A stretch of DNA of 37,894 bases. It comes from Clostridiales bacterium. Lineage in GTDB: Bacteria > Bacillota > Clostridia > Clostridiales > Caloramatoraceae. Positions 1,686 to 19,107 of this stretch are shown piece by piece. The stretch lies in contig JARDZI010000002.1 of NCBI GenBank assembly GCA_029240935.1, positions 1 to 37,894 on the forward strand, given 5' to 3'. Numbering within the stretch: the first letter of the stretch is position 1; every line of letters begins with the position of its first letter. Made by a program: the position numbers and the translations under genes. The notes beneath the pieces are model-generated. The model saw only the letters and a program-made list of their open reading frames with translations. It was not told where the DNA came from and did no database searches.

Positions 1686-2372
1686 TTAATTATCACCACC
1701 AAATTTATAACCTACCTTCATTACTGTAACAATATATTTAGGATTTTTTGTATCTTCTTCTATCTTCTTTCGAATATTTTTTACATGCACATCAACAGTT
1801 CTATCATATCCATCAAAATCCACTCCGAAAATCTTGTCTATTAGCTGTTCCCTAGATAAAACCTTTCCCTTATTCACTACTAAGGTATATAATATATCAA
1901 ATTCACTTGGTGTAAAAGCTACCTCGTACCCTCTTACCTTCACAACCCTTTTATCATAGTCAATACTCAGCTTTCCATCATCAAAAATTAAGTTTGAACT
2001 AGTATTATCAGCACTTATTCTTCTAAAAAGAGCATTTACTCTTGCTGTAAGCTCCCTGGGACTGAAAGGCTTAATCAAATACTCATCAGCACCTATATTT
2101 AATCCCTCTATCCTTTCGTCTAATCCTGCCTTCGCAGTAAGCATGAAAATATGAACCTCGGAGATTTGCCTGATTATTTTACATACTTCCTCTCCACTTA
2201 TATCTGGAAGCATTAAATCAAGAATTATCAGTTTAATATTCATTCTTTTAAATATTTCAATACCTTCAAACCCTTTAGTAGTGCAGTAAACATTATATCC
2301 TTCCTTAACCAGGTATGCTTTCAAAACTTCGGAAACCTTCTCTTCATCCTCTATTATTAAAATATTGTCCAT
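1686..2372 (-). CDS. OmpR-family response regulator
   Basis: The protein has 228 residues. The receiver domain (about 1-118) has acidic residues EDE at 8-10, phospho-acceptor Asp52 in LDLMLPD, Thr79 and Lys101 in the IKPF motif. A winged-helix DNA-binding domain of the OmpR/PhoB type fills about 130-225 (ending in TVMKVGYKF). It is the first gene of a two-gene operon with the adjoining histidine kinase, with no bases between stop and next start. Its targets are not visible in the sequence. It could act on the convergent cupredoxin-like gene, on itself, or elsewhere. Confidence 0.94.
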   Translation of the reverse strand: MDNILIIEDEEKVSEVLKAYLVKEGYNVYCTTKGFEGIEIFKRMNIKLIILDLMLPDISGEEVCKIIRQISEVHIFMLTAKAGLDERIEGLNIGADEYLIKPFSPRELTARVNALFRRISADNTSSNLIFDDGKLSIDYDKRVVKVRGYEVAFTPSEFDILYTLVVNKGKVLSREQLIDKIFGVDFDGYDRTVDVHVKNIRKKIEEDTKNPKYIVTVMKVGYKFGGDN

Positions 2373-2605
2373 CTATTCCACCTTCCACTCTATAAAATAA
2401 AGTAGGATATAATTTTTCTATATAAAAACATTATAGCAAATTATTTTAAAGATATTATGAAGAAGTAACAAAAATATATTTCAGTTAGAACTGTATTTAC
2501 TAGATTCATAAGCACAAATTAATGAGGGAAGACATAATTAAATTTCAAATATTTTACTTAAAAATATAAAATAATATGGAGTTTTCTCTTAATCAAAAAA
2601 AGTTA

Positions 2606-2634
2606 TTGACATAATTGTATTTATTTATTATAAT
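2606..2634 (+). promoter_or_regulatory. Sigma-A-type promoter of the methionine operon
   Basis: TTGACA at 2606-2611 and TATAAT at 2629-2634 are both exact consensus with a 17-base spacer. It lies about 25 bases before the first S-box aptamer. I see no comparably good promoter between the two riboswitches. Confidence 0.85.
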
Positions 2635-2656
2635 TCTTTTTATACAATTTAATAAG

Positions 2657-2766
2657 GTCTTATCAAGAGTGGTGGAGGGATAGGCCCTGTGAAGCCCAGC
2701 AACCAATATGCTTTATTTGCATATACGGTGCTAAGTCCTGCGGCATATGCCGAAAGATAAGGAGAA
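2657..2766 (+). ncRNA. SAM riboswitch (S-box), first of two
   Basis: The S-box core is plain: CTTATCAAGAG, then GGTGGAGGGATAGGCCC, GAAGCCCAGCAACC, a P3 hairpin (ATATG...CATAT), GGTGCTAAGTCCTGC and a P4 hairpin (CGGCATATGCCG). GATAAGG closes P1. When SAM binds, S-box RNAs stabilise P1 and let the downstream terminator form. This aptamer lies directly behind the strong promoter and has its own terminator. Confidence 0.95.
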
Positions 2767-2778
2767 GGATTTTTGTGA

Positions 2779-2810
2779 CCTCTTCTAGTAAGAGGCATTT
2801 TTATTATTAT
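2779..2810 (+). terminator. Intrinsic terminator of the first S-box
   Basis: The stem CCTCTT (2779-2784) / AAGAGG (2790-2795) has a 5-base loop and is followed by CATTTTTATTATTATTTT. The stem is only 6 bp, so it may be leaky, which could explain a second switch downstream. Confidence 0.7.
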
Positions 2811-2888
2811 TTTACATGTGTACAATGAAGTGGTAACGTATTAAATCAATATTTGATTTATAAGCAAACAAGATTTAAAACTAAATAA

Positions 2889-3013
2889 TAAGACTCTTAT
2901 CAAGAGAGGTAGAGGGACAGGCCCTATGAAACCTCAGCAACCCTCAGGCTCATTTGCCTGAAAAGGTGCCAATTCCTGCTTTGGATTTGTATTTCCAGAG
3001 GAAGATGAGGGAG
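2889..3013 (+). ncRNA. SAM riboswitch (S-box), second of two
   Basis: A second complete S-box follows about 120 bases after the first: CTCTTATCAAGAG, GGTAGAGGGACAGGCCC, ATGAAACCTCAGCAACC, a P3 hairpin (TCAGGC...GCCTGA), GGTGCCAATTCCTGC and P4. P1 pairs CTCTTATC (2893-2900) with GATGAGGG (3004-3011). AAGATGA (3002-3008) is complementary to TCATCTT (3044-3050), which overlaps the 5' arm of the terminator, so an antiterminator can be seen directly. Confidence 0.95.
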
Positions 3014-3035
3014 AGAATTTTTGGCTATATGTATA

Positions 3036-3078
3036 GTCCTCTTTCATCTTAATTTTTTATGAAAGAGGACTTTTTTTT
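3036..3078 (+). terminator. Intrinsic terminator of the second S-box
   Basis: A 12-bp perfect stem, GTCCTCTTTCAT (3036-3047) / ATGAAAGAGGAC (3059-3070), is followed by eight T. It is stronger than the first terminator. The upstream ATG of the following reading frame (3059) lies in its 3' arm. Confidence 0.93.
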
Positions 3079-3088
3079 AAGATGGGAG

Positions 3089-4456
3089 ATGTTAAAATTG
3101 TTACTCGAATTAGAGAAGTTAAAATACCGTATAATAGGCGTGCTAAAGGGAGATAAATATCGATATTCACAACCGGTTCAGGGAGATTTTAACGATTTGC
3201 AGCCTGGAGAATTTGATTGGTGGAAGTATAAATATTATATACGTCAGATTGAACAGGCAGAAAAAGGAAAGCACATTGAAGAGTTCTTTGCAAAGCAAAA
3301 CCTGGACTTTTCACTGCCCGAGGGATTTGTAGCTAAAGGAACATTTAAAATGACAGCAGGTGGTGATTTGCTTTCAGGTGATCAAATCACTACTGAGACT
3401 ACAAAGCATTTATGGGATGATATTGCTCATTTTTACTTTGAAAATACAGACAGGGTTTATGCCAATTTAGAAACCCCAATAGCTGCTTCACAGCCTGTTA
3501 AAAATGCTCCTCGAAGTGTAAATGAAACGCCACAACTCAATGGCACCGAAGGAATGCTTGACCGCTACCTTAACAATGGAAGAGGAATCAACTTTTTTTC
3601 AACTGCTAATAATCATTGCTTCAACCAGGGAGAAAAGGGGTTGATTGAAACGCTGGAACTGCTAGATAAAAAAGGAGCGCTCCAGGTTGGTACTGCCCGA
3701 ACCTCAGAGGAGCAGGACAACATTCCAATAATTGAGAAAAACGGTTTGCGTATTGCATATATTGCCTACACCTTTACACTCAATGGCGACAAGGTGCCTG
3801 AGGGCAAGGAATATATGGTTAACCATGTACACCTTAACAACCCTAATGAGGATCTTACACTTATAAAAAGGCATGTAGCTATTGCCCGGGAAGGTAAAGC
3901 AGATATGGTTATTGCCTTCCTCCACTGGAGTTTGGAATTTGAATCCTATCCCATTGAGAATATTATCAAAATGGGCCATCGCATACTTGAAGAGTGCGGC
4001 GTGGATATAATTATCGGAAATCATGCCCATGTCATTCAGCCATTGGAAGGATATAATTTTACCGATCCATTCAGCGGAGAGAAAAAAAGCGGGCTGATTG
4101 CCTATTCATTAGGCAATCTAGTGGCAGATTTTAATACCGACAACTCACTGTTGAGTATTTTACTCCGCATCCAAATGACCAAAGGTACTCTGAATGGTCT
4201 TGAGAAAACTGTTATAAGTGGATTGGAGGTTCTCCCTTTCTATACTTTCAAAGAATGCAGAGATGGTGTGTTTAAAGAAATCCGTTTACTTGACTTTTTG
4301 AATCTGCTTGAACAGCTTCAAAAAGGTGTAACTCCTTATGCTTTTACTAAAGAGCAGATAAAGGAACTTTACAGACTTAAAAAATTGTTTTATAAGCTAA
4401 TGCCAAATTCAATTGAGCAGGTTGTACAAACAAAACATAGGCTATCGAAGAAATAG
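3089..4456 (+). CDS. CapA/PgsA-type metallophosphatase
   Basis: The product is a soluble protein of about 455 residues. The CapA (PGA_cap) calcineurin-like fold begins with the metal-binding run FKMTAGGDLLSGD, continues with VYANLETPIA, FFSTANNHCFNQG and FLHWSLEFES, and closes with DIIIGNHAHVIQPLE and YSLGNLVADF. These supply the Asp, Asn and His ligands expected of the family. No signal peptide is seen. The frame is open from an ATG at 3059, but that codon is inside the riboswitch terminator stem. I take the ATG at 3089; a TTG at 3098, better spaced from GGGAG, is possible. It is the first gene after the S-box leader and lies 10 bases before metN. The substrate is unknown and a role in methionine supply is inferred from context. 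Confidence 0.85.
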   Translation: MLKLLLELEKLKYRIIGVLKGDKYRYSQPVQGDFNDLQPGEFDWWKYKYYIRQIEQAEKGKHIEEFFAKQNLDFSLPEGFVAKGTFKMTAGGDLLSGDQITTETTKHLWDDIAHFYFENTDRVYANLETPIAASQPVKNAPRSVNETPQLNGTEGMLDRYLNNGRGINFFSTANNHCFNQGEKGLIETLELLDKKGALQVGTARTSEEQDNIPIIEKNGLRIAYIAYTFTLNGDKVPEGKEYMVNHVHLNNPNEDLTLIKRHVAIAREGKADMVIAFLHWSLEFESYPIENIIKMGHRILEECGVDIIIGNHAHVIQPLEGYNFTDPFSGEKKSGLIAYSLGNLVADFNTDNSLLSILLRIQMTKGTLNGLEKTVISGLEVLPFYTFKECRDGVFKEIRLLDFLNLLEQLQKGVTPYAFTKEQIKELYRLKKLFYKLMPNSIEQVVQTKHRLSKK

Positions 4457-4466
4457 GAGGTTATTT

Positions 4467-5492
4467 ATGATTGAGTTAAAGGGAATATACAAAACCTTTC
4501 ATACAAGGGATAAAGAGGTACAAGCTTTAAAAAATGTTAACCTTACTATTAATAAGGGGGATATTTTTGGGGTTATTGGTTATAGCGGTGCTGGAAAAAG
4601 TACACTGATACGCATCATAAATCTATTAGAGGAACCTGACAAAGGTGAGGTTGTGGTGGATGGAACATCCCTCCTTGACATCAGTAAAAAACAGTTGCGC
4701 AGTGTACGTACTAATATTGGCATGATCTTTCAGGGCTTTAACTTAATGGACAGTATTGACGTTTATAACAACATTGCAGCTCCGCTAAAAAACCTCAAAT
4801 GGGAAAAGATCAATATTCAGGAGAAGGTAAATAACCTTCTCAAACTTGTAGGATTGGAGGATAAAAAGCATGCCTATCCCAACCAGCTTAGTGGTGGTCA
4901 AAAGCAGCGTGTTGCAATTGCCAGAGCACTAAGCAGTGATCCTAAAATTCTGCTATGCGATGAAGCGACATCAGCACTTGATCCTAATACCACCCAGTCC
5001 ATTCTTGAACTGCTTAAACAGATTCACGATCAGCTTGGAATTACCATTGTAATAATTACCCACCAGATGGAGGTCGTGAAAAGCATATGTAATCGTATTG
5101 CAATTATGGATTATGGCGAAGTAAAGGAACAGGGAGATATAGTAGATATTTTTACCAACCCAAAGAGCCATATTGCAAAGGATTTTGTTTATCATTCACT
5201 TAATATTAAAATTGACCCTGAGGATTTTGCAGAATATAAGGGCAAAATATGCAAGTTTAATTTCTATGGTATTATTGCACAGGAGCCTGTACTATCACGT
5301 TTGGAGCATAAATATGAGATAACAGTCAATATTCTCTTCGGAAATATTGAAAAGCTCCACAACAATATAGTTGGTAGTCTTATTGTGGAATTGACCGGAG
5401 AAAGTTCAAATATAGAAAAGGCACTTACCTACTATAAAACACTTGATACAAAGGTGGAGGTGATCAGAGATGCTTCAGCAGCTAATTCCTAA
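4467..5492 (+). CDS. metN: Methionine ABC transporter ATP-binding protein MetN
   Basis: The protein has 341 residues, counted from the ATG at 4467, which AGGAGG precedes; an in-frame upstream start at 4413 is rejected because it lies within the previous gene. It has Walker A GYSGAGKS (38-45), Q-loop Gln89, the signature LSGGQ (141-145), Walker B ILLCDE (161-166) and an ACT-like NIL domain at about 260-335. The NIL domain is the methionine-sensing part of MetN, which gives feedback by intracellular methionine. The stop of the CapA gene overlaps the ribosome site, and metI begins 23 bases before this gene ends, so the operon is tight and SAM-controlled. Confidence 0.96.
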   Translation: MIELKGIYKTFHTRDKEVQALKNVNLTINKGDIFGVIGYSGAGKSTLIRIINLLEEPDKGEVVVDGTSLLDISKKQLRSVRTNIGMIFQGFNLMDSIDVYNNIAAPLKNLKWEKINIQEKVNNLLKLVGLEDKKHAYPNQLSGGQKQRVAIARALSSDPKILLCDEATSALDPNTTQSILELLKQIHDQLGITIVIITHQMEVVKSICNRIAIMDYGEVKEQGDIVDIFTNPKSHIAKDFVYHSLNIKIDPEDFAEYKGKICKFNFYGIIAQEPVLSRLEHKYEITVNILFGNIEKLHNNIVGSLIVELTGESSNIEKALTYYKTLDTKVEVIRDASAANS

Positions 5493-6141
5493 TGTAATCG
5501 AATATTCTCCCGAACTCCTGAAGGCCCTTAAAGAAACCTTGATTATGGTTTCAATTTCAGGATTATTCGCAGCTCTGATTGGAATTCCAGTAGGGGTTAT
5601 TTTACTTGTTACTTCAGAAGGACATATTTTGAAAAACAGGATGATTTATTCGATTATTTCAAAGATAGTAAATTCCCTGCGTTCTATTCCATTTGTTATT
5701 TTAATCGCTGCCATTCCAGGCATTACAAGGATGCTGGCGGGCACCACCATCGGCATAAAGGGAGCGATTGTTCCACTTGTTATAGCTAGTTTTCCATTTG
5801 TAGCAAGGCAGATTGAGGTGGCACTTTTAAAGGTTGATATGGGTGTAATTGAAGCATATCAAGCTATGGGTTTTTCACCATTTGGAATTATCTTTAAAGT
5901 AATTCTTGTTGAGGGACTAAAGAATATTGTTTTGGCACTTACCATTTCACTTATCAGCTTAATCGGTTTCTCAGCAATTACCGGTACTGTTGGCGGGGGA
6001 GGGCTTGGAGATTTTGCTATAAGATATGGATATCAATATTTCAAAACAGATATTATGGTGGTTACTATTATTATTATTCTGCTAATTGTCTATGTTATTC
6101 AGGGAGTTGGCGATTTTATATATAAAAAGCTAAGTCATTAG
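5470..6141 (+). CDS. metI: Methionine ABC transporter permease MetI
   Basis: The 223-residue length is normal for MetI. It has about five membrane helices and the binding-protein-dependent permease loop around VIEAYQAMGFSPFGIIFKVIL, which couples to the ATPase. The start ATG at 5470 overlaps the end of metN by 23 bases and has GGAGGTGAT just upstream, so translation is coupled. It forms the membrane channel with MetN and receives substrate from MetQ, whose gene follows. Confidence 0.95.
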   Translation: MLQQLIPNVIEYSPELLKALKETLIMVSISGLFAALIGIPVGVILLVTSEGHILKNRMIYSIISKIVNSLRSIPFVILIAAIPGITRMLAGTTIGIKGAIVPLVIASFPFVARQIEVALLKVDMGVIEAYQAMGFSPFGIIFKVILVEGLKNIVLALTISLISLIGFSAITGTVGGGGLGDFAIRYGYQYFKTDIMVVTIIIILLIVYVIQGVGDFIYKKLSH

Positions 6142-6163: not shown

Positions 6164-7015
6164 ATGAAAAATTTAAAAAAATTATTAAGTCTTTTAATTG
6201 TGGCAACTATTGTTCTAGGTATCACTGCATGCTCATCAAATGCTTCCAAGCCTTCTGAAAAGGCAGCATTAGGAACAAAGGATGGTGACGTTACTGTTCT
6301 AAAGATCGGAATAAACGGCACCGACTTCCGTCTATGGGATAATTTAAACAAAAGATTAGCAGAAAAGAAAATCAGGCTTGAGCCAGTAAGCTTTTCTGAT
6401 TATGTAAAGCCAAACATCGCCTTATCTGATGGTGAAATCGATCTTAATGCATTCCAGCACATGTTATATTTCAATAATTTCATTAAGGAACGTAATCTTG
6501 ATTTAAGCTCAGTTGGTTATACCTTTATTGCGCCACTTGGATTATATTCCAACAAGATTAAAAACTTAGATGAAGTTAAGGAGGGAGCAAAGGTTGCAAT
6601 CCCTAACGATGCAACCAATGGAGGACGTGCTCTGCTGCTCCTTGAATCTGCTGGATTAATAAAGCTAGATGGAACAAATAAGGTTACTCCAAATACTAAG
6701 AATATTGCCCAGAATCCTAAGAATCTGGAATTTGTCTCAATGGAGTCAGTACAGATTCCGCGTTCACTTAATGATGTTGACTTTGGCGCAATCAACGGTG
6801 GTGCGGCTACAGATGCAGGCCTCTTTGATTACATCTTCCGTGAAGACCCAAATCAGGAAAATGCCGAACAATACTTTAATGTAATTGCTGTAAGGACTGA
6901 TGACAAGGACAACGAAATCTTCAAGCAGATCATGGAGGTTTACTACACAGAAGAAACTGCAAAAGCTATTACTGAAATCTACAAGGGAGCTTACATCCCA
7001 GTATTTGAATATTAG
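6164..7015 (+). CDS. metQ: Methionine-binding lipoprotein MetQ
   Basis: This is a 283-residue NlpA/MetQ-family protein. The lipoprotein signal ends in the lipobox LGITAC with Cys23. The mature part shows LKIGINGTDFRLWD and the NlpA core NAFQHMLYFNNF, with a typical C-terminus. The ATG at 6164 is chosen because AAGGAGAG lies 8 bases upstream; a TTG at 6146 in the same frame overlaps the ribosome site. It captures D/L-methionine outside the membrane for MetNI. Repeat and hairpin sequences follow, so it may end the main transcript. Confidence 0.95.
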   Translation: MKNLKKLLSLLIVATIVLGITACSSNASKPSEKAALGTKDGDVTVLKIGINGTDFRLWDNLNKRLAEKKIRLEPVSFSDYVKPNIALSDGEIDLNAFQHMLYFNNFIKERNLDLSSVGYTFIAPLGLYSNKIKNLDEVKEGAKVAIPNDATNGGRALLLLESAGLIKLDGTNKVTPNTKNIAQNPKNLEFVSMESVQIPRSLNDVDFGAINGGAATDAGLFDYIFREDPNQENAEQYFNVIAVRTDDKDNEIFKQIMEVYYTEETAKAITEIYKGAYIPVFEY

Positions 7016-7040
7016 AGAATAATATCGCTATTAAAACTCT

Positions 7041-7156
7041 TGTAGCGTCAGCCGCCCACGGCTGACCTGGGCTTAACCAGCCAGGGAGAACCCATATTTA
7101 AAGCAGGGTAACCTTGCACTCGTGAGAGCTGTCAGCTGTAGGCAGCTGACGCTACA
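7041..7156. repeat. Intergenic inverted-repeat element with TGTAGCGTCAGC ends
   Basis: The 12-base end TGTAGCGTCAGC (7041-7052) is perfectly inverted at 7145-7156. The interior holds smaller palindromes (GTCAGCCG...CGGCTGAC) and is much more GC-rich than its surroundings. There is no open frame. It is about 116 bases long and resembles a small non-autonomous element. It sits between metQ and the amidohydrolase gene. Confidence 0.75.
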
Positions 7157-7202
7157 ATAAAATTAAGATTAATGAATTTCAACTAAGGTATATAATATTA
7201 AT

Positions 7203-7265: not shown

Positions 7266-8438
7266 ATGAACACACAAAAAAATATCCTGCTTAAGTACAT
7301 TGATGATAACCAAGACCAATATATTAATATAGCTCGTCAGATTTTTGCTAATCCTGAAACCTCCAATCACGAATATTTTGCATGTAAAATGCTCTCGGAT
7401 CAGCTGGAGTCCCATGGATTTTCAATAACTCGTGATGTAGCTAGTCACCCCACCGGATTTACTGCTGTAAAAAAATCATCCCGGAGTGGTCCAAGGATTA
7501 CATTTTTAGCAGAATATGATGCCCTGGAGGGCTTGGGACATGGCTGTGGCCACAATCTGATTGGGACAATTTCAACCTACGCTGCAATCGCCCTGTCTAA
7601 GCAATTGGATAAGTTTGGCGGAGAGCTTCGGGTGTATGGTACCCCCGGTGAGGAGGGAGGAGAAAATGGCAGTGCAAAGGAGGATTTTGTAACCAAGGGA
7701 TATTTTGATGATGTAGATATTGCTATGGAAATCCACCCTTCCAATGAAAACTCTGTTACCCCCGCGTCCCTTGCAGTTGACCCTGTGGATATAGAATTCT
7801 GGGGCAGATCAGCCCATGCTGGACTATCCCCGGAGCTTGGAATAAATGCCTTAGATGCACTGATACTTACCTATAATGGTATAAACGCATTGCGCCAGCA
7901 TTTGACTACTGATGTTAAAATACATGGAATCATACTGAATGGAGGTTCTGCCCCAAATATTGTTCCCGATTATGCAAGAGGACGTTTTTACCTCCGTGCT
8001 AAAACCCGTCCAACACTTAATAAGGTCTTTGAAAAGGTGGAACATATTGTTCAAGGAGCTGCAATGGCTACAGGCGCAACTTGTAAAATTGCCAGGTTCC
8101 AAAACAAGGTTGATGATATTGTTAGAAATGAAATACTGGATGATCTGTACCGAGAAACCATGTCTGATATGGGGGTGACCTGGAGTGAGAATGTGGCCTT
8201 TTCCTCAACTGATGCTGGTAATGTGTCACATGTTATTCCCCTCCTTCATCCCATGCTAAAAACCACCTCCTGTGGTTCGCCACTGCATTCTATGGAATTC
8301 CGTGAATCCTGCATTGCCTCTGAGGCACTCAGTTCTATTGCCACTGGTGCAAAGCTTTTAGCACTTACGGCTATGAAGCTGTTCAATCAGCCTGATTTAG
8401 TGGAGGAGATTAAGTTATTTCATAAAGATTTAATTTAA
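7266..8438 (+). CDS. M20-family amidohydrolase (AbgB/aminoacylase-like)
   Basis: The protein has 390 residues. It shows the M20 metal-site motifs FLAEYDALEGLGHGCGHN and GTPGEEGGENG, then a dimerisation domain beginning near the HPSNE and WGRSAHAG motifs, and a late metal His in the SCGSPLHSMEFRE region. Family members cleave amide bonds of N-acyl amino acids or short dipeptides in the cytoplasm. The ATG at 7266 follows GAGAGGAG. It lies downstream of metQ on the same strand, behind a repeat and a hairpin, so co-expression under the S-box is plausible but unproven. A role in releasing methionine from an acylated or dipeptide form is inference from context. Confidence 0.88.
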   Translation: MNTQKNILLKYIDDNQDQYINIARQIFANPETSNHEYFACKMLSDQLESHGFSITRDVASHPTGFTAVKKSSRSGPRITFLAEYDALEGLGHGCGHNLIGTISTYAAIALSKQLDKFGGELRVYGTPGEEGGENGSAKEDFVTKGYFDDVDIAMEIHPSNENSVTPASLAVDPVDIEFWGRSAHAGLSPELGINALDALILTYNGINALRQHLTTDVKIHGIILNGGSAPNIVPDYARGRFYLRAKTRPTLNKVFEKVEHIVQGAAMATGATCKIARFQNKVDDIVRNEILDDLYRETMSDMGVTWSENVAFSSTDAGNVSHVIPLLHPMLKTTSCGSPLHSMEFRESCIASEALSSIATGAKLLALTAMKLFNQPDLVEEIKLFHKDLI

Positions 8439-8583: not shown

Positions 8584-11028
8584 TTATCTTACTGGCTTAA
8601 ATCTCTTTAATCTTAAAGCATTAGTTAATACTGATACTGAGCTTAAACTCATTGCTGCTGCAGCTAGCATAGGACTTAATAGTGGGCCACCAAATATGTG
8701 TAACAAACCCATTGCTACTGGAATTCCCAATGTATTGTATCCAAATGCCCAGAAAAGATTTTGCTTAATATTTCTTATTGTACTCTTACTTAACTGTATT
8801 GCTGTTGGCACATCCATTAGATCACTTCTCATGAGAACTATATCTGCTGATTCCATTGCAACGTCTGTTCCGGAACCTATTGCAATCCCTATATCTGCTT
8901 GTGCAAGAGCTGGAGCATCATTAATACCATCACCAACCATTGCAACCTTTTTACCTTCAGCTTGTAGTTTTTTAACTTCATTAGCCTTATCCTGAGGTAG
9001 AACCTCTGCCAAAATTCTATCTATCCCTACCTGCTTAGCTATAGCTTCAGCAGTTCTCCTATTATCTCCTGTAATCATAGCAACTACAATTCCCATTCCA
9101 TGAAGCTTTTCTATTGCTTTTTTGCTATTTTCCTTTACTGTATCAGCAACAGCAATAATTCCTGCTAGCTTTTCATCAATTGCTATATACATTGGAGTTT
9201 TGCCTTCGCTAGCCAGTTTATCAGAAGTTTCCTCTAGTTTTTCTAATGATATATTTCTTTCAACCATAAGTTTTCTATTTCCAAGTAGTATGTCTTTCCC
9301 ATCTATTTTAACCTCTATTCCAAGACCTGGTATGGCCTTAAAGAAATCTAATTTTTTAAAATCTAATCCCTTCTCCTCTGCACCCTTTACAATTGCTTCA
9401 CCAAGTGGATGTTCTGAACCCTTTTCTGCCGATGCAGCTAATTGGAGTAAATCTTTTTCTGTTATTCCATTAGTAACAACCACATCAGTAACCTTTGGCT
9501 TGCCTTCTGTAATAGTACCTGTTTTATCAAATACAATTGTTTCTATCTTGTGGGCAGTTTCCAGTGCAACACCGCTCTTTATTAAAACGCCATGCTCTGC
9601 TCCCTTGCCTGTACCAACCATTATAGCAGTTGGAGTTGCAAGTCCCAGTGCACATGGGCAAGCAATTACAAGTACAGAGATAAATATTGTAAGTGCAAAT
9701 ATTCCATTTTCGCCTGCAATATACCAGCCTAATCCAGCAATAATCGCCAAAGCAATAACTATAGGAACAAAGTAGCCAGAAATAACGTCTGCGAGCTTTG
9801 CGATTGGTGCTTTTGAGCCTTGAGCATCTTCAACAAGCTTTATAATTTGTGCTAATGTAGTGTCCTTGCCAACCTTGGTAGCCCTATATTTTATAGTACC
9901 GTTTTTATTTATACTTGCACCAATAATACCGTCTCCAGCATTTTTTTCAACTGGTATACTTTCACCTGTTAGCATTGACTCATCTACGGAAGTAGTACCA
10001 GAGGCTACCTCCCCATCCACAGGCATCTTTTCACCTGGCTTAACCAAGATTAAATCTCCAACTTCTACTTCTTCAATAGGAATTTCAACTTCCTTTCCAT
10101 CCTTAATAATTATTGCAGTTTTAGGAGCAAGTCCCATGAGTTTCTTAATAGCTTCAGAGGTCTTCCCCTTTGAAACTGCTTCTAAATATTTACCAAGTGT
10201 TATTAACGTAATAATTACCGCTGCTGATTCAAAATATAGGTCCATAGTATAGCTTGTATCTCCACCTATAATTTTAATTGTTCCAAATATTCCATATAGC
10301 ACCGCTGCTGATGTACCTATTGCAATAAGTGAATCCATATTAGGACTTCTTTTAATCAATGTTTTAAATCCAATTCTGTAGTACCTATTACCAGCAATTA
10401 CAACAGGTATAGTTAGTATTAATTGAGATAGTGCAAAAGCTGTTGGATGCATCATTGGATCAACAAAACCAGGAAGTGGAAGTCCTATCATATGACCCAT
10501 GGATATATATAATAGGGGTACTGTAAATATTGCAGAAACTATAAATTTTATCCATAAGAGCTTTATTTCTTTTTCTTTTCTTTCCCTATCAGTATCTACT
10601 GTTGTCTCTTCCTCTATAGCCTTGTATCCAGCTTTTTCTACTGCTTTCTTTATATCTACAACTCTTACTTTTGAGGCTTCATAGCTTATAGTTAATTTTT
10701 CAGTAGCTAAATTAACACTTGCCTCTGTTACTCCATCGAGTTTTTTAGTTGCCCTTTCTACTGCCTTTACACAGGAGGCACAAGTCATTCCTTCTATTTT
10801 CATAGTTTTATTTACAGAATCACTAATAGCCTTATATCCTGCTTTTTCAACAGCTGTTTGAATGTCTCCAACAGAAACCTTGCCTTCATCAAAGCTTATA
10901 CTTAACTTTTCAGTAGCTAAATTAACATTTGCCTCTGTTACTCCTTCAAGCTTTTTAGTAGCTCTCTCTACTGCCTTTGCACAGGATGCACAGGTCATTC
11001 CTTCTATTTTTAGTGCTTTAGTAGCCAT
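8584..11028 (-). CDS. copA: Copper(I)-exporting P1B-type ATPase CopA, copy 1
   Basis: The pump has 814 residues and exports Cu(I) from the cytoplasm using ATP. Two N-terminal HMA domains carry GMTCASC (Cys13/Cys16 and Cys83/Cys86). There are eight expected membrane helices, actuator TGES at 354-357, the transport motif CPC at 457-459, phosphorylated Asp501 in DKTGT, SEHPLGE and GDGINDAPA. The last helices carry YN (GYNTLG) and MSLSS, the Cu(I) class signature. The start ATG has AAAGGAGTGAAAAGT before it. A promoter with a G/C-tract operator lies upstream. A second, closely similar pump gene lies at 16651-19107. No substrate other than Cu(I)/Ag(I) is suggested by the motifs. Confidence 0.96.
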
Positions 11029-13489: not shown

Positions 13490-13755
13490 CCTAGTGCAAT
13501 AAAAAAGCCTTCTACCTCTGTATATTACAGAGGCAGAAGGTTAACTTCCGCGGTTCCACTCTGATTAGACATTTCTGCCCATCTTTAATCAGGTACGATT
13601 ATACCATATCTCTATAACGGGAGATACCGTAGCAGCCTACTGATATTCGGCTTAATGCTCAAAGGTGCACTTCACTCATAATTCACATAAAACTCTCTCA
13701 GCCTTGGAGTTTCTCTCTGGATGCTTCATAGGATTTACTTTTCCTTATCATCGCA
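13490..13755 (-). ncRNA. T-box riboswitch, specifier TGC (cysteine)
   Basis: On the - strand the leader contains the T-box sequence GAGTGGAACCGCGG (complement near 13544-13560), an AGAGA-type stem I, and GAAGTGCACCTTTGAGC. That last piece aligns with GAAAGGCATTCTTGAGC, the specifier region of the glycine T-box as I recall it from Bacillus glyQS. This places TGC (complement of 13667-13669) in the specifier. Uncharged tRNA-Cys should therefore turn on the symporter gene 50 bases downstream. Confidence 0.93.
13501..13540 (-). terminator. T-box terminator
   Basis: On the - strand, CCTTCTGCCTCTGTA (13526-13540) pairs with TACAGAGGTAGAAGG (13508-13522) around a 3-base loop. GC then six T follow. 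The upstream arm directly follows the T-box sequence, so the antiterminator can compete with it. Confidence 0.9.
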
Positions 13756-13833
13756 TTTTATATTCATAGTTAATTTTGGAGTGTTTTAATATATATTTGC
13801 TGCAAATTGCTTGCATTCTTATAAATAATTAGA

Positions 13834-16650: not shown

Positions 16651-19107
16651 TTACTTAGCTGGCTTAAATCCCTTTAATCTTAATGCATTAAGTAATACTG
16701 ATACTGAGCTAAAGCTCATTGCTGCCGCTGCTATTATCGGATTTAGTAGTGGTCCTCCAAAGAGGTACAGAATTCCCATTGCAACAGGTATTCCTAATGT
16801 GTTATACCCAAATGCCCAGAATAGGTTTTGTTTGATATTCCTTATAGTCTTTTTACTTAACTGTATTGCAGTAGGAACATCCATTAAATCACTTCTCATA
16901 AGAACTATATCTGCTGATTCCATAGCAACGTCTGTACCTGAACCTATTGCTATACCTATGTCTGCTTGTGCTAAAGCTGGAGCATCGTTTATACCATCAC
17001 CGACCATTGCAACTTTCTTACCTTCTGCCTGAAGCGACCTAACCTCATTTGCTTTGTCTTGAGGAAGTACTTCTGCCAGGATTCTGTCTATTCCAACCTG
17101 CTTAGCTATAGCTTCAGCAGTCCTTTTATTATCCCCTGTAATCATTGCTACTTCTATTCCCATTTTATGAAGCTTTTCAATTGCTTTTTTACTATTTTCC
17201 TTTACAGTATCTGCAACTGCTATAATACCTGCCATTTTACTATCAATTGCTATATACATTGGAGTTTTACCTTCACTAGCAAGCTTATCAGAAGTTTCCT
17301 CTAGCTTTTCTAGGGATATATTTCTTTCAACCATAAGCTTTCTGTTTCCAAGCAATATATTTTTATCATCAATTTTAACTTCTATACCAAGGCCAGGTAT
17401 CGCCTTAAATAAATCAAGCTTTTTAAATTCTAATTCCTTTTCCTCAGCACCCTTTACAATTGACTCTCCAAGTGGATGCTCTGAACCCTTTTCTGCTGAA
17501 GCAGCTAATTGTAACAACTCATTTGGTGCAATGCCATTTGTAACAACTACATCTGTAACCTTTGGCTTACCCTCTGTAATAGTGCCTGTTTTATCAAATA
17601 CTATTGTTTTTATTTTATGTGCTGTTTCTAATGCAACACCACTTTTTATTAAAACACCATATTCTGCACCCTTTCCTGTACCAACCATTATTGCAGTTGG
17701 AGTTGCTAAGCCTAAAGCACAAGGACATGCTATAACAAGCACAGAAATAAATATTGTTAAAGCGAATACTGCTGTTTCTCCTCCAAAGAAGTACCATGCC
17801 AATGCTGAAGCAATTGCTATTCCTATAACTACTGGAACAAAGTAGCCTGAAATTATATCTGCCATCTTGGCAATTGGGGCTTTAGAGCCCTGCGCATCCT
17901 CTACTAGCTTTATAATCTGAGCTAATGCTGTATCTTTACCAACTTTAGTAGCCTTGTACCTTATTCTTCCATTTTTATTAATACTTGCACCTATTATCTT
18001 ATCTCCAATATTCTTTTCTACTGGTATACTTTCTCCTGTCAACATGGATTCATCTACAGAGGTCAAACCTTCTATTACTTCTCCATCTACTGGCATTTTT
18101 TCTCCTGGCCTAACTATAATTACATCTCCTACTTCAACTTCTTCTAAAGGAGTTTCTACCTCTTTCTCATCCCTAATAACAATAGCTGTTTTAGGAGCAA
18201 GTCCCATAAGCTTCTTTATAGCCTCAGAGGTTTTTCCCTTTGTAACTGCTTCTAAGTATTTGCCAAGTGTAATAAGGGTTATTATAACTGCCGCTGATTC
18301 GAAATATAAATCATAAGCATAATCTACATTCCCTCTAAAAATTTGCACTATAGCAAATATTCCATATAAGAATGCTGCTGAGGTACCCATAGCAATTAGT
18401 GAGTCCATATTAGGGCCTCTTCTAAATAGTGATTTAAAGCCTACTGTAAAGAACTTATAACCTGCAATCATAACAGGTAGCACCAAAATCAATTGAGCTA
18501 TACCAAAAGCTCTTGGATTGATCATAGGGTCTATAAACTGTGGAAGCTTAAATCCAATTGGTTCACCAAACATATGTCCCATGGTTATAATTAATAGAGG
18601 TATTGAGAATATTAATGAAATAATAAATTTCTTCCAAATTAATTTAATTTCCTTTTCTTTTCTTATTTTATCTTCATCTACAGAAGTTTCCTCTTCAATT
18701 GCCTTATATCCAGCTTTTTCTATGGCCTTCTTAATATCTGAAACTCTAACCTTTGAAGCATCATAGCTTATACTTAATTTTTCAGTTGCAAAGTTTACAT
18801 TAGAATCTATAACCCCATCTAGTTTTTTTGTTACCTTCTCAATTGTTTTTGCGCAAGCTGCACAGGTCATACCTTCTACTTTTAATGACTTTTTACTTGA
18901 CTCAGTAACAGCCCTGTATCCTGCCTTTTCAATAGCTGCTCGAATATCTGGGATTGAGACTTTTGTTTCATCAAAACTAATCTTTAGTTTTTCTGTAGCA
19001 AAGTTTACATTTGCTTCGATAACACCATCTAGCTTTTTTGATACTCTTTCAACAGTTTTTGCACAAGCTGCGCAGGTCATTCCTTCTATTTTAAGATTTT
19101 TTTCCAA
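16651..19107 (-). CDS. copA: Copper(I)-exporting P1B-type ATPase CopA, copy 2
   Basis: The protein has 818 residues and is a close paralogue of copy 1. Two HMA domains carry GMTCAAC (Cys12/Cys15 and Cys82/Cys85). It has TGES, CPC (461-463), Asp505 in [21 protein letters not shown], and the Cu(I) markers GYNTLG and MSFSS. The ATP-binding and C-terminal regions are almost identical to copy 1, while helices 1-2 and HMA domains differ. Translation appears to start at TTG (19105-19107), as no in-frame ATG precedes the first HMA motif. copZ is 32 bases downstream. A GC-rich operator lies just upstream, after the lipoprotein gene. Confidence 0.95.

Follow-up and report, generated by a model that had tools for sequence, protein, structure and literature searches.

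Two complete S-box riboswitches of unlike sequence in the leader of a predicted methionine uptake operon

When two riboswitches of the same class precede one operon, do both of them act, and are they copies of each other? The question arises in a stretch of 37,894 nucleotides from a Clostridiales bacterium (GenBank assembly GCA_029240935.1, contig JARDZI010000002.1, positions 1 to 37,894), which we call the window. A first-pass annotation, made from the letters, had described a single consensus promoter with two SAM switches lined up behind it, both equipped with a terminator. The sequence supports this arrangement (Table 1).

Table 1. Features of the tandem S-box leader and of the genes behind it (positions in the window)
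Feature	Position	Strand	Evidence
Sigma-A-type promoter TTGACA-17-TATAAT, whole leader	2606-2634	+	12/12 match
S-box (SAM-I) aptamer 1	2657-2763	+	RF00162 85.4 bits, E 5e-19
Possible antiterminator 1	2760-2786	+	2760-2768 with 2779-2786, 8 pairs and bulge, duplex -8.5 kcal/mol
Intrinsic terminator 1 (T1, weak)	2775-2798	+	9 pairs, one-base bulge, -7.7 to -8.2 kcal/mol
S-box (SAM-I) aptamer 2	2894-3011	+	RF00162 87.5 bits, E 1.3e-19
Antiterminator 2, predicted	3002-3050	+	3002-3013 with 3039-3050, 12 pairs, -16.7 kcal/mol (forced fold, duplex)
Intrinsic terminator 2 (T2, strong)	3035-3071	+	13 pairs, -16.9 to -17.4 kcal/mol, then T run
CapA/PGA_cap-family gene, first in operon	3089-4456	+	PF09587 E 3e-48
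metN, methionine ABC transporter ATPase with NIL domain	4458-5492	+	PF00005, PF09383
metI, permease	5470-6141	+	PF00528; PRK10782 E 6e-58
metQ/NlpA lipoprotein	6164-7015	+	PF03180 E 2e-75
M20-family amidohydrolase, amhX-like	7266-8438	+	TIGR01891 above cut-off

An Rfam scan of the whole window returns exactly two matches to the SAM family (RF00162, cut-off 44.4 bits), both on the forward strand. Both E-values are below 1e-18, which rules out chance as an explanation. The two aptamers are complete, as had been claimed, and the spacing of about 230 bases from start to start measures 237 bases. To judge intactness column by column, we aligned 24 S-boxes, drawn from the window, the rest of its genome and related genomes. 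In this alignment both aptamers retain every invariant column, so that a degenerate first aptamer is ruled out. Two near-invariant positions are altered in aptamer 1: A16 is T (one relative has the same change) and A35 is G. The genome itself contains an S-box that has decayed: on another contig (C31; L062:1880-1995), upstream of a metY-like gene, a degenerate copy without its 3' half scores 38.6 bits, below the cut-off. Decay is therefore visible in this genome when it is present, and neither unit in the window shows it. We predict that both aptamers bind SAM.

Each aptamer is followed by its own terminator, in agreement with the annotation. The first stem had been called a weak one of 6 base pairs. 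It is weak (about -8 kcal/mol); six of its pairs are perfect, and across the bulge it has nine, followed by a broken U-rich run, TTTTATTATTATTTT. The second, described as a strong 12-bp stem, is indeed strong (about -17 kcal/mol) but has one pair more. In unit 2 the predicted antiterminator would join the 3' strand of P1 and the bases next to it to the 5' arm of the terminator. Duplex energies are no proof of antiterminators, because shuffled terminator arms often match them: 333 of 2000 shuffles equal or exceed the duplex of unit 1, and 133 of 2000 that of unit 2. We infer antiterminators in both units from the standard layout of the class, which recurs in relatives. For example, in three related genomes (G002, G008 and G011) the terminator arm CCTCTTTCATC is, by eye, complementary to GATGAGAGAGG of P1. 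At minimum energy both units prefer the terminated form. This is common in switches that act during transcription.

The genes behind the leader include a sulphur-amino-acid set, metN, metI and metQ, identified by domain matches; for metN the TIGR02314 match (E 9e-115) lies under that model's curated cut-off. The capA-like gene may start at ATG 3089 or at TTG 3098, a choice considered from the sequence and from the homologue in a Ruminococcaceae UBA5413 locus (L046). The GGGAG at 3084-3088 fits the TTG better. Between metQ and the M20 amidohydrolase gene lies a gap of 250 bases that contains a repeated element, and the amidohydrolase gene is likely part of the same transcript. The element itself (7040-7162) is 123 bases long, has inverted ends (TTGTAGCGTCAGC/GCTGACGCTACAA) and a folding z-score of -6.9. 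It is MITE-like: about a dozen near-full copies occur in its own genome and none in 29 relatives.

How unusual is such a leader? Tandem S-boxes had been called uncommon. For the class as a whole this holds: the tally in a 2022 review is 164 SAM-I doubles and one triple (PMC9481103), and for TPP and AdoCbl riboswitches fewer than 1% of leaders carry several aptamers (PMC2258182). For metNIQ operons it does not hold. As far as the accessible part of a 2025 survey goes, SAM-SAM tandems in Bacillota are enriched on metN, metI, metQ and amhX, a COG1473 amidohydrolase gene that frequently accompanies the metNIQ tandems (PMC12452182). We searched 40 genomes, the window's own and 39 relatives. S-boxes are present in 39 of them, and at least 11 other pairs lie on the same strand less than 500 bases apart. 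Among the matches listed, the hosts are G001, G002, G007, G008, G011, G025, G030, G033, G037 and, with two pairs, G032. Downstream of seven of these pairs (those of G002, G007, G008, G011, G025, G030 and G037) we find metN, and in all ten pairs checked (every pair except that of G033) each aptamer is followed by a terminator-like hairpin. In one of the two pairs of G032, on C16, a separate promoter precedes the second S-box. Hence some neighbouring pairs are not strictly in series.

The locus is a member of the published SAM-SAM metNIQ arrangement, with which it shares riboswitch class, operon and M20/COG1473 amidohydrolase. It differs in the capA-like gene at the front, of which we found no mention in the consulted parts of the survey or, ahead of a metNIQ tandem, in those of the review. 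The survey, where we could consult it, takes metNIQ as a metal-ion transporter and bases its view of SAM-SAM tandems on this. Judging by the gene families, methionine uptake is the simpler reading. Like the tandem SAM-I riboswitches of the review, the window leader has two complete S-boxes for the same ligand, and each unit is expected to act alone. The review, in the portion available, regards such doubles as probably "pseudo-cooperative". Other known series resemble the leader in part, as far as the citing articles describe them. The tandem TPP riboswitches of Bacillus anthracis (Welz and Breaker 2007, cited in PMC2258182) are likewise a same-class series with separate expression platforms, but differ in ligand and class. 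The metE leader of Bacillus clausii (Sudarsan 2006, cited in PMC2258182 and PMC9481103) also terminates independently in series and includes one SAM-I unit; unlike the window leader, it senses two different ligands and forms a NOR gate. In the window, two complete units, alike in ligand but each with a platform of its own, stand behind a promoter whose match to consensus points to one transcript.

We consider it highly probable that the tandem SAM-I leader controls the capA-metN-metI-metQ(-M20) uptake operon as two independent OFF switches that act by transcription termination. Within the leader, the Rfam matches, the invariant core, the two terminators, the predicted 12-pair antiterminator 2 and the 12/12 promoter support the tandem reading. 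Around it, metNIQ downstream, the seven related metN loci with the same architecture and the published SAM-SAM tandems do so too. A transcript begun at the 2606-2634 promoter would pass both units. At low SAM, P1 would be open in each unit, the antiterminator would form and RNA polymerase would read through. At high SAM, the aptamer would hold P1, the terminator would form and the transcript would stop at about 2800 or about 3075. With one transcript crossing both units, total read-through would equal that of unit 1 times that of unit 2. The weak T1 would then trim the leak, and the strong T2 would carry most of the switching. The independence of the units and the shape of the SAM response are predictions of this scheme.

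Two other readings would leave the operon under unit 2 alone, either wholly or for some of the transcripts. Because T1 is weak and antiterminator 1 is matched by many shuffles, unit 1 may be a near-inert switch. Only unit 2 would matter, and unit 1 would be a leftover S-box whose terminator is too weak, so that the leader acts as a single switch. The gap in stability between T1 and T2 fits this reading, yet we think it unlikely: it would be surprising for a decayed unit to retain every invariant column, the truly degenerate S-box before metY in the same genome scores far lower than aptamer 1, and S-boxes of relatives, too, can be followed by terminators as weak as about -8 kcal/mol. The second reading places another promoter between the units, whose transcripts would be exposed to unit 2 alone. 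The annotation had seen no good promoter there. Indeed, the forward strand between the units has no site that matches at 9 or more of 12 positions, and 9/12 sites are about equally frequent in shuffled sequence. Below that threshold the claim needs qualifying, since TTTACA-17-TAACGT at 2811-2839, which matches at 8 of 12 positions and carries a TGn extension, is a possible promoter, and the C16 pair of G032 (L059) provides a precedent for a promoter before a second S-box. Against it stands the site at 2606, the one consensus promoter that had been proposed upstream, which is the sole 12/12 site in 2300-3300 and the top-scoring one in 2560-3090. Moreover, a promoter directly precedes the S-boxes closest to unit 2, but the 60 bases ahead of unit 2 itself contain no good one. 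A second start between the units thus appears unlikely from the promoter matches, and a leader divided into two transcription units very improbable. We retain the reading of two OFF switches on one transcript, with a single start site as the promoter match suggests.

What would a second switch add? It had been suggested that serial switches give a steeper or wider response to SAM. In a simple model of the series response with illustrative parameters, going from one to two ideal equal switches narrows the 10-90% span from 81-fold to 40-fold. If the first unit is leaky and has equal affinity, then the span shrinks only to about 64-fold and fold repression rises about 2.2 times (from 18 to 40.5). 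With a unit 1 that reacts to tenfold lower SAM, the span widens to about 200-fold. Hence both a steeper and a wider response are possible in the model, but the steepening would be small and the main gain would be a lower leak. Since steepness and width depend on the affinities of the units, the safest expectation for two OFF switches in series is that the leak falls and the response becomes modestly steeper, if at all.

The two units are far less alike than the units of the related pairs that we examined. Their identity is 66.7%, compared to 83-100% in the other eleven pairs, and is lower than the average over every S-box pair in the comparison (74.1%, sd 5.7). In the accessible part of the 2022 review we found no discussion of the likeness between units of one pair. 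We built a tree of 55 S-boxes over about 110 columns, in which the bootstrap had not settled. Unit 2 groups, with support 99/94, among S-boxes before metY-like, other PLP-enzyme and hom genes (G005, G018); with the metY/hom S-boxes it has in common an inserted base ahead of the GCAACC motif, a long P4 and a P3 loop. Unit 1 lies loosely amid metF and metN S-boxes, in a position without support. Forcing the two units to be sisters is rejected (p-AU 0.009). Identity and tree rule out a recent duplication, although trees from some 110 bases are weak. On their sequences, then, the two units are no recent copies of each other. This suggests either that the pair was assembled from two different S-box lineages or that it goes back to a very ancient duplication. 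The comparison does not support shared descent of unit 2 with the decayed metY S-box on C31, as the latter lacks the base insertion of the unit 2 group. The source assembly is fragmented, a bin of 493 contigs with 6.3% contamination, but an assembly artefact is unlikely, because a repeat error would not double units that are only 67% alike.

Alternatively, the pair arose by local duplication, as the other tandems did, and its units diverged afterwards, which would concern their origin and not their function. The high identity within the other eleven pairs fits such a history, and short sequences change fast in their variable stems. However, an identity below the mean of all S-boxes, the rejected sisterhood and the metY/hom-type features of unit 2 all speak against it, and we regard it as somewhat doubtful. 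Equally tentative is our own proposal that the leader was joined from a transport/metF-like and a metY/hom-like unit with different SAM thresholds. Such a leader would turn the operon down in two steps, over a wider range of SAM than a duplicated tandem. Neighbouring S-boxes in the relatives examined appear to be local duplicates, and we found no report of an S-box pair with separate S-box relatives in the consulted parts of the review and the survey. A pair with separate kin would allow a natural test of which benefit maintains S-boxes in series: reduced leak, a steeper response or a broader range. In other respects, the window pair is one more case of the documented metNIQ arrangement.

The tandem is not conserved along with its operon. 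L046 has the identical gene order capA-metN-metI-metQ-M20 (identities to the window of 57% for CapA, 68% for MetN, 78% for MetI, 65% for MetQ and 58% for M20), and this sole close relative of the operon has no S-box. CapA homologues of other relatives are distant, and none has metN beside it in the stretches fetched. The L046 leader (L046:5705-5900, DHNP01000047.1) encodes a Met/Cys-rich peptide of 43 residues (MMCSMCIMCCGMPKM) with 8 Met and 4 Cys, followed by a hairpin of 16 pairs and a T run. From its sequence it looks like a Met/Cys leader-peptide attenuator that replaces the riboswitch. A CapA/PGA_cap protein (L046:5983-7332 and its counterpart in the window) thus heads a methionine transporter operon in two lineages. 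The protein has weak similarity to the lasso-peptide epimerase MslH.

Elsewhere in the window, the Rfam scan finds a single T-box leader (13526-13760, minus strand, 103 bits), flanked by cysK-like and symporter genes and with an Rrf2-type regulator gene nearby. Reading the translations, we also note two similar heavy-metal (copper-type) P-ATPase genes on the minus strand (8584-11028 and 16651-19107), within 11 kb and followed by arsA/arsD-like genes.
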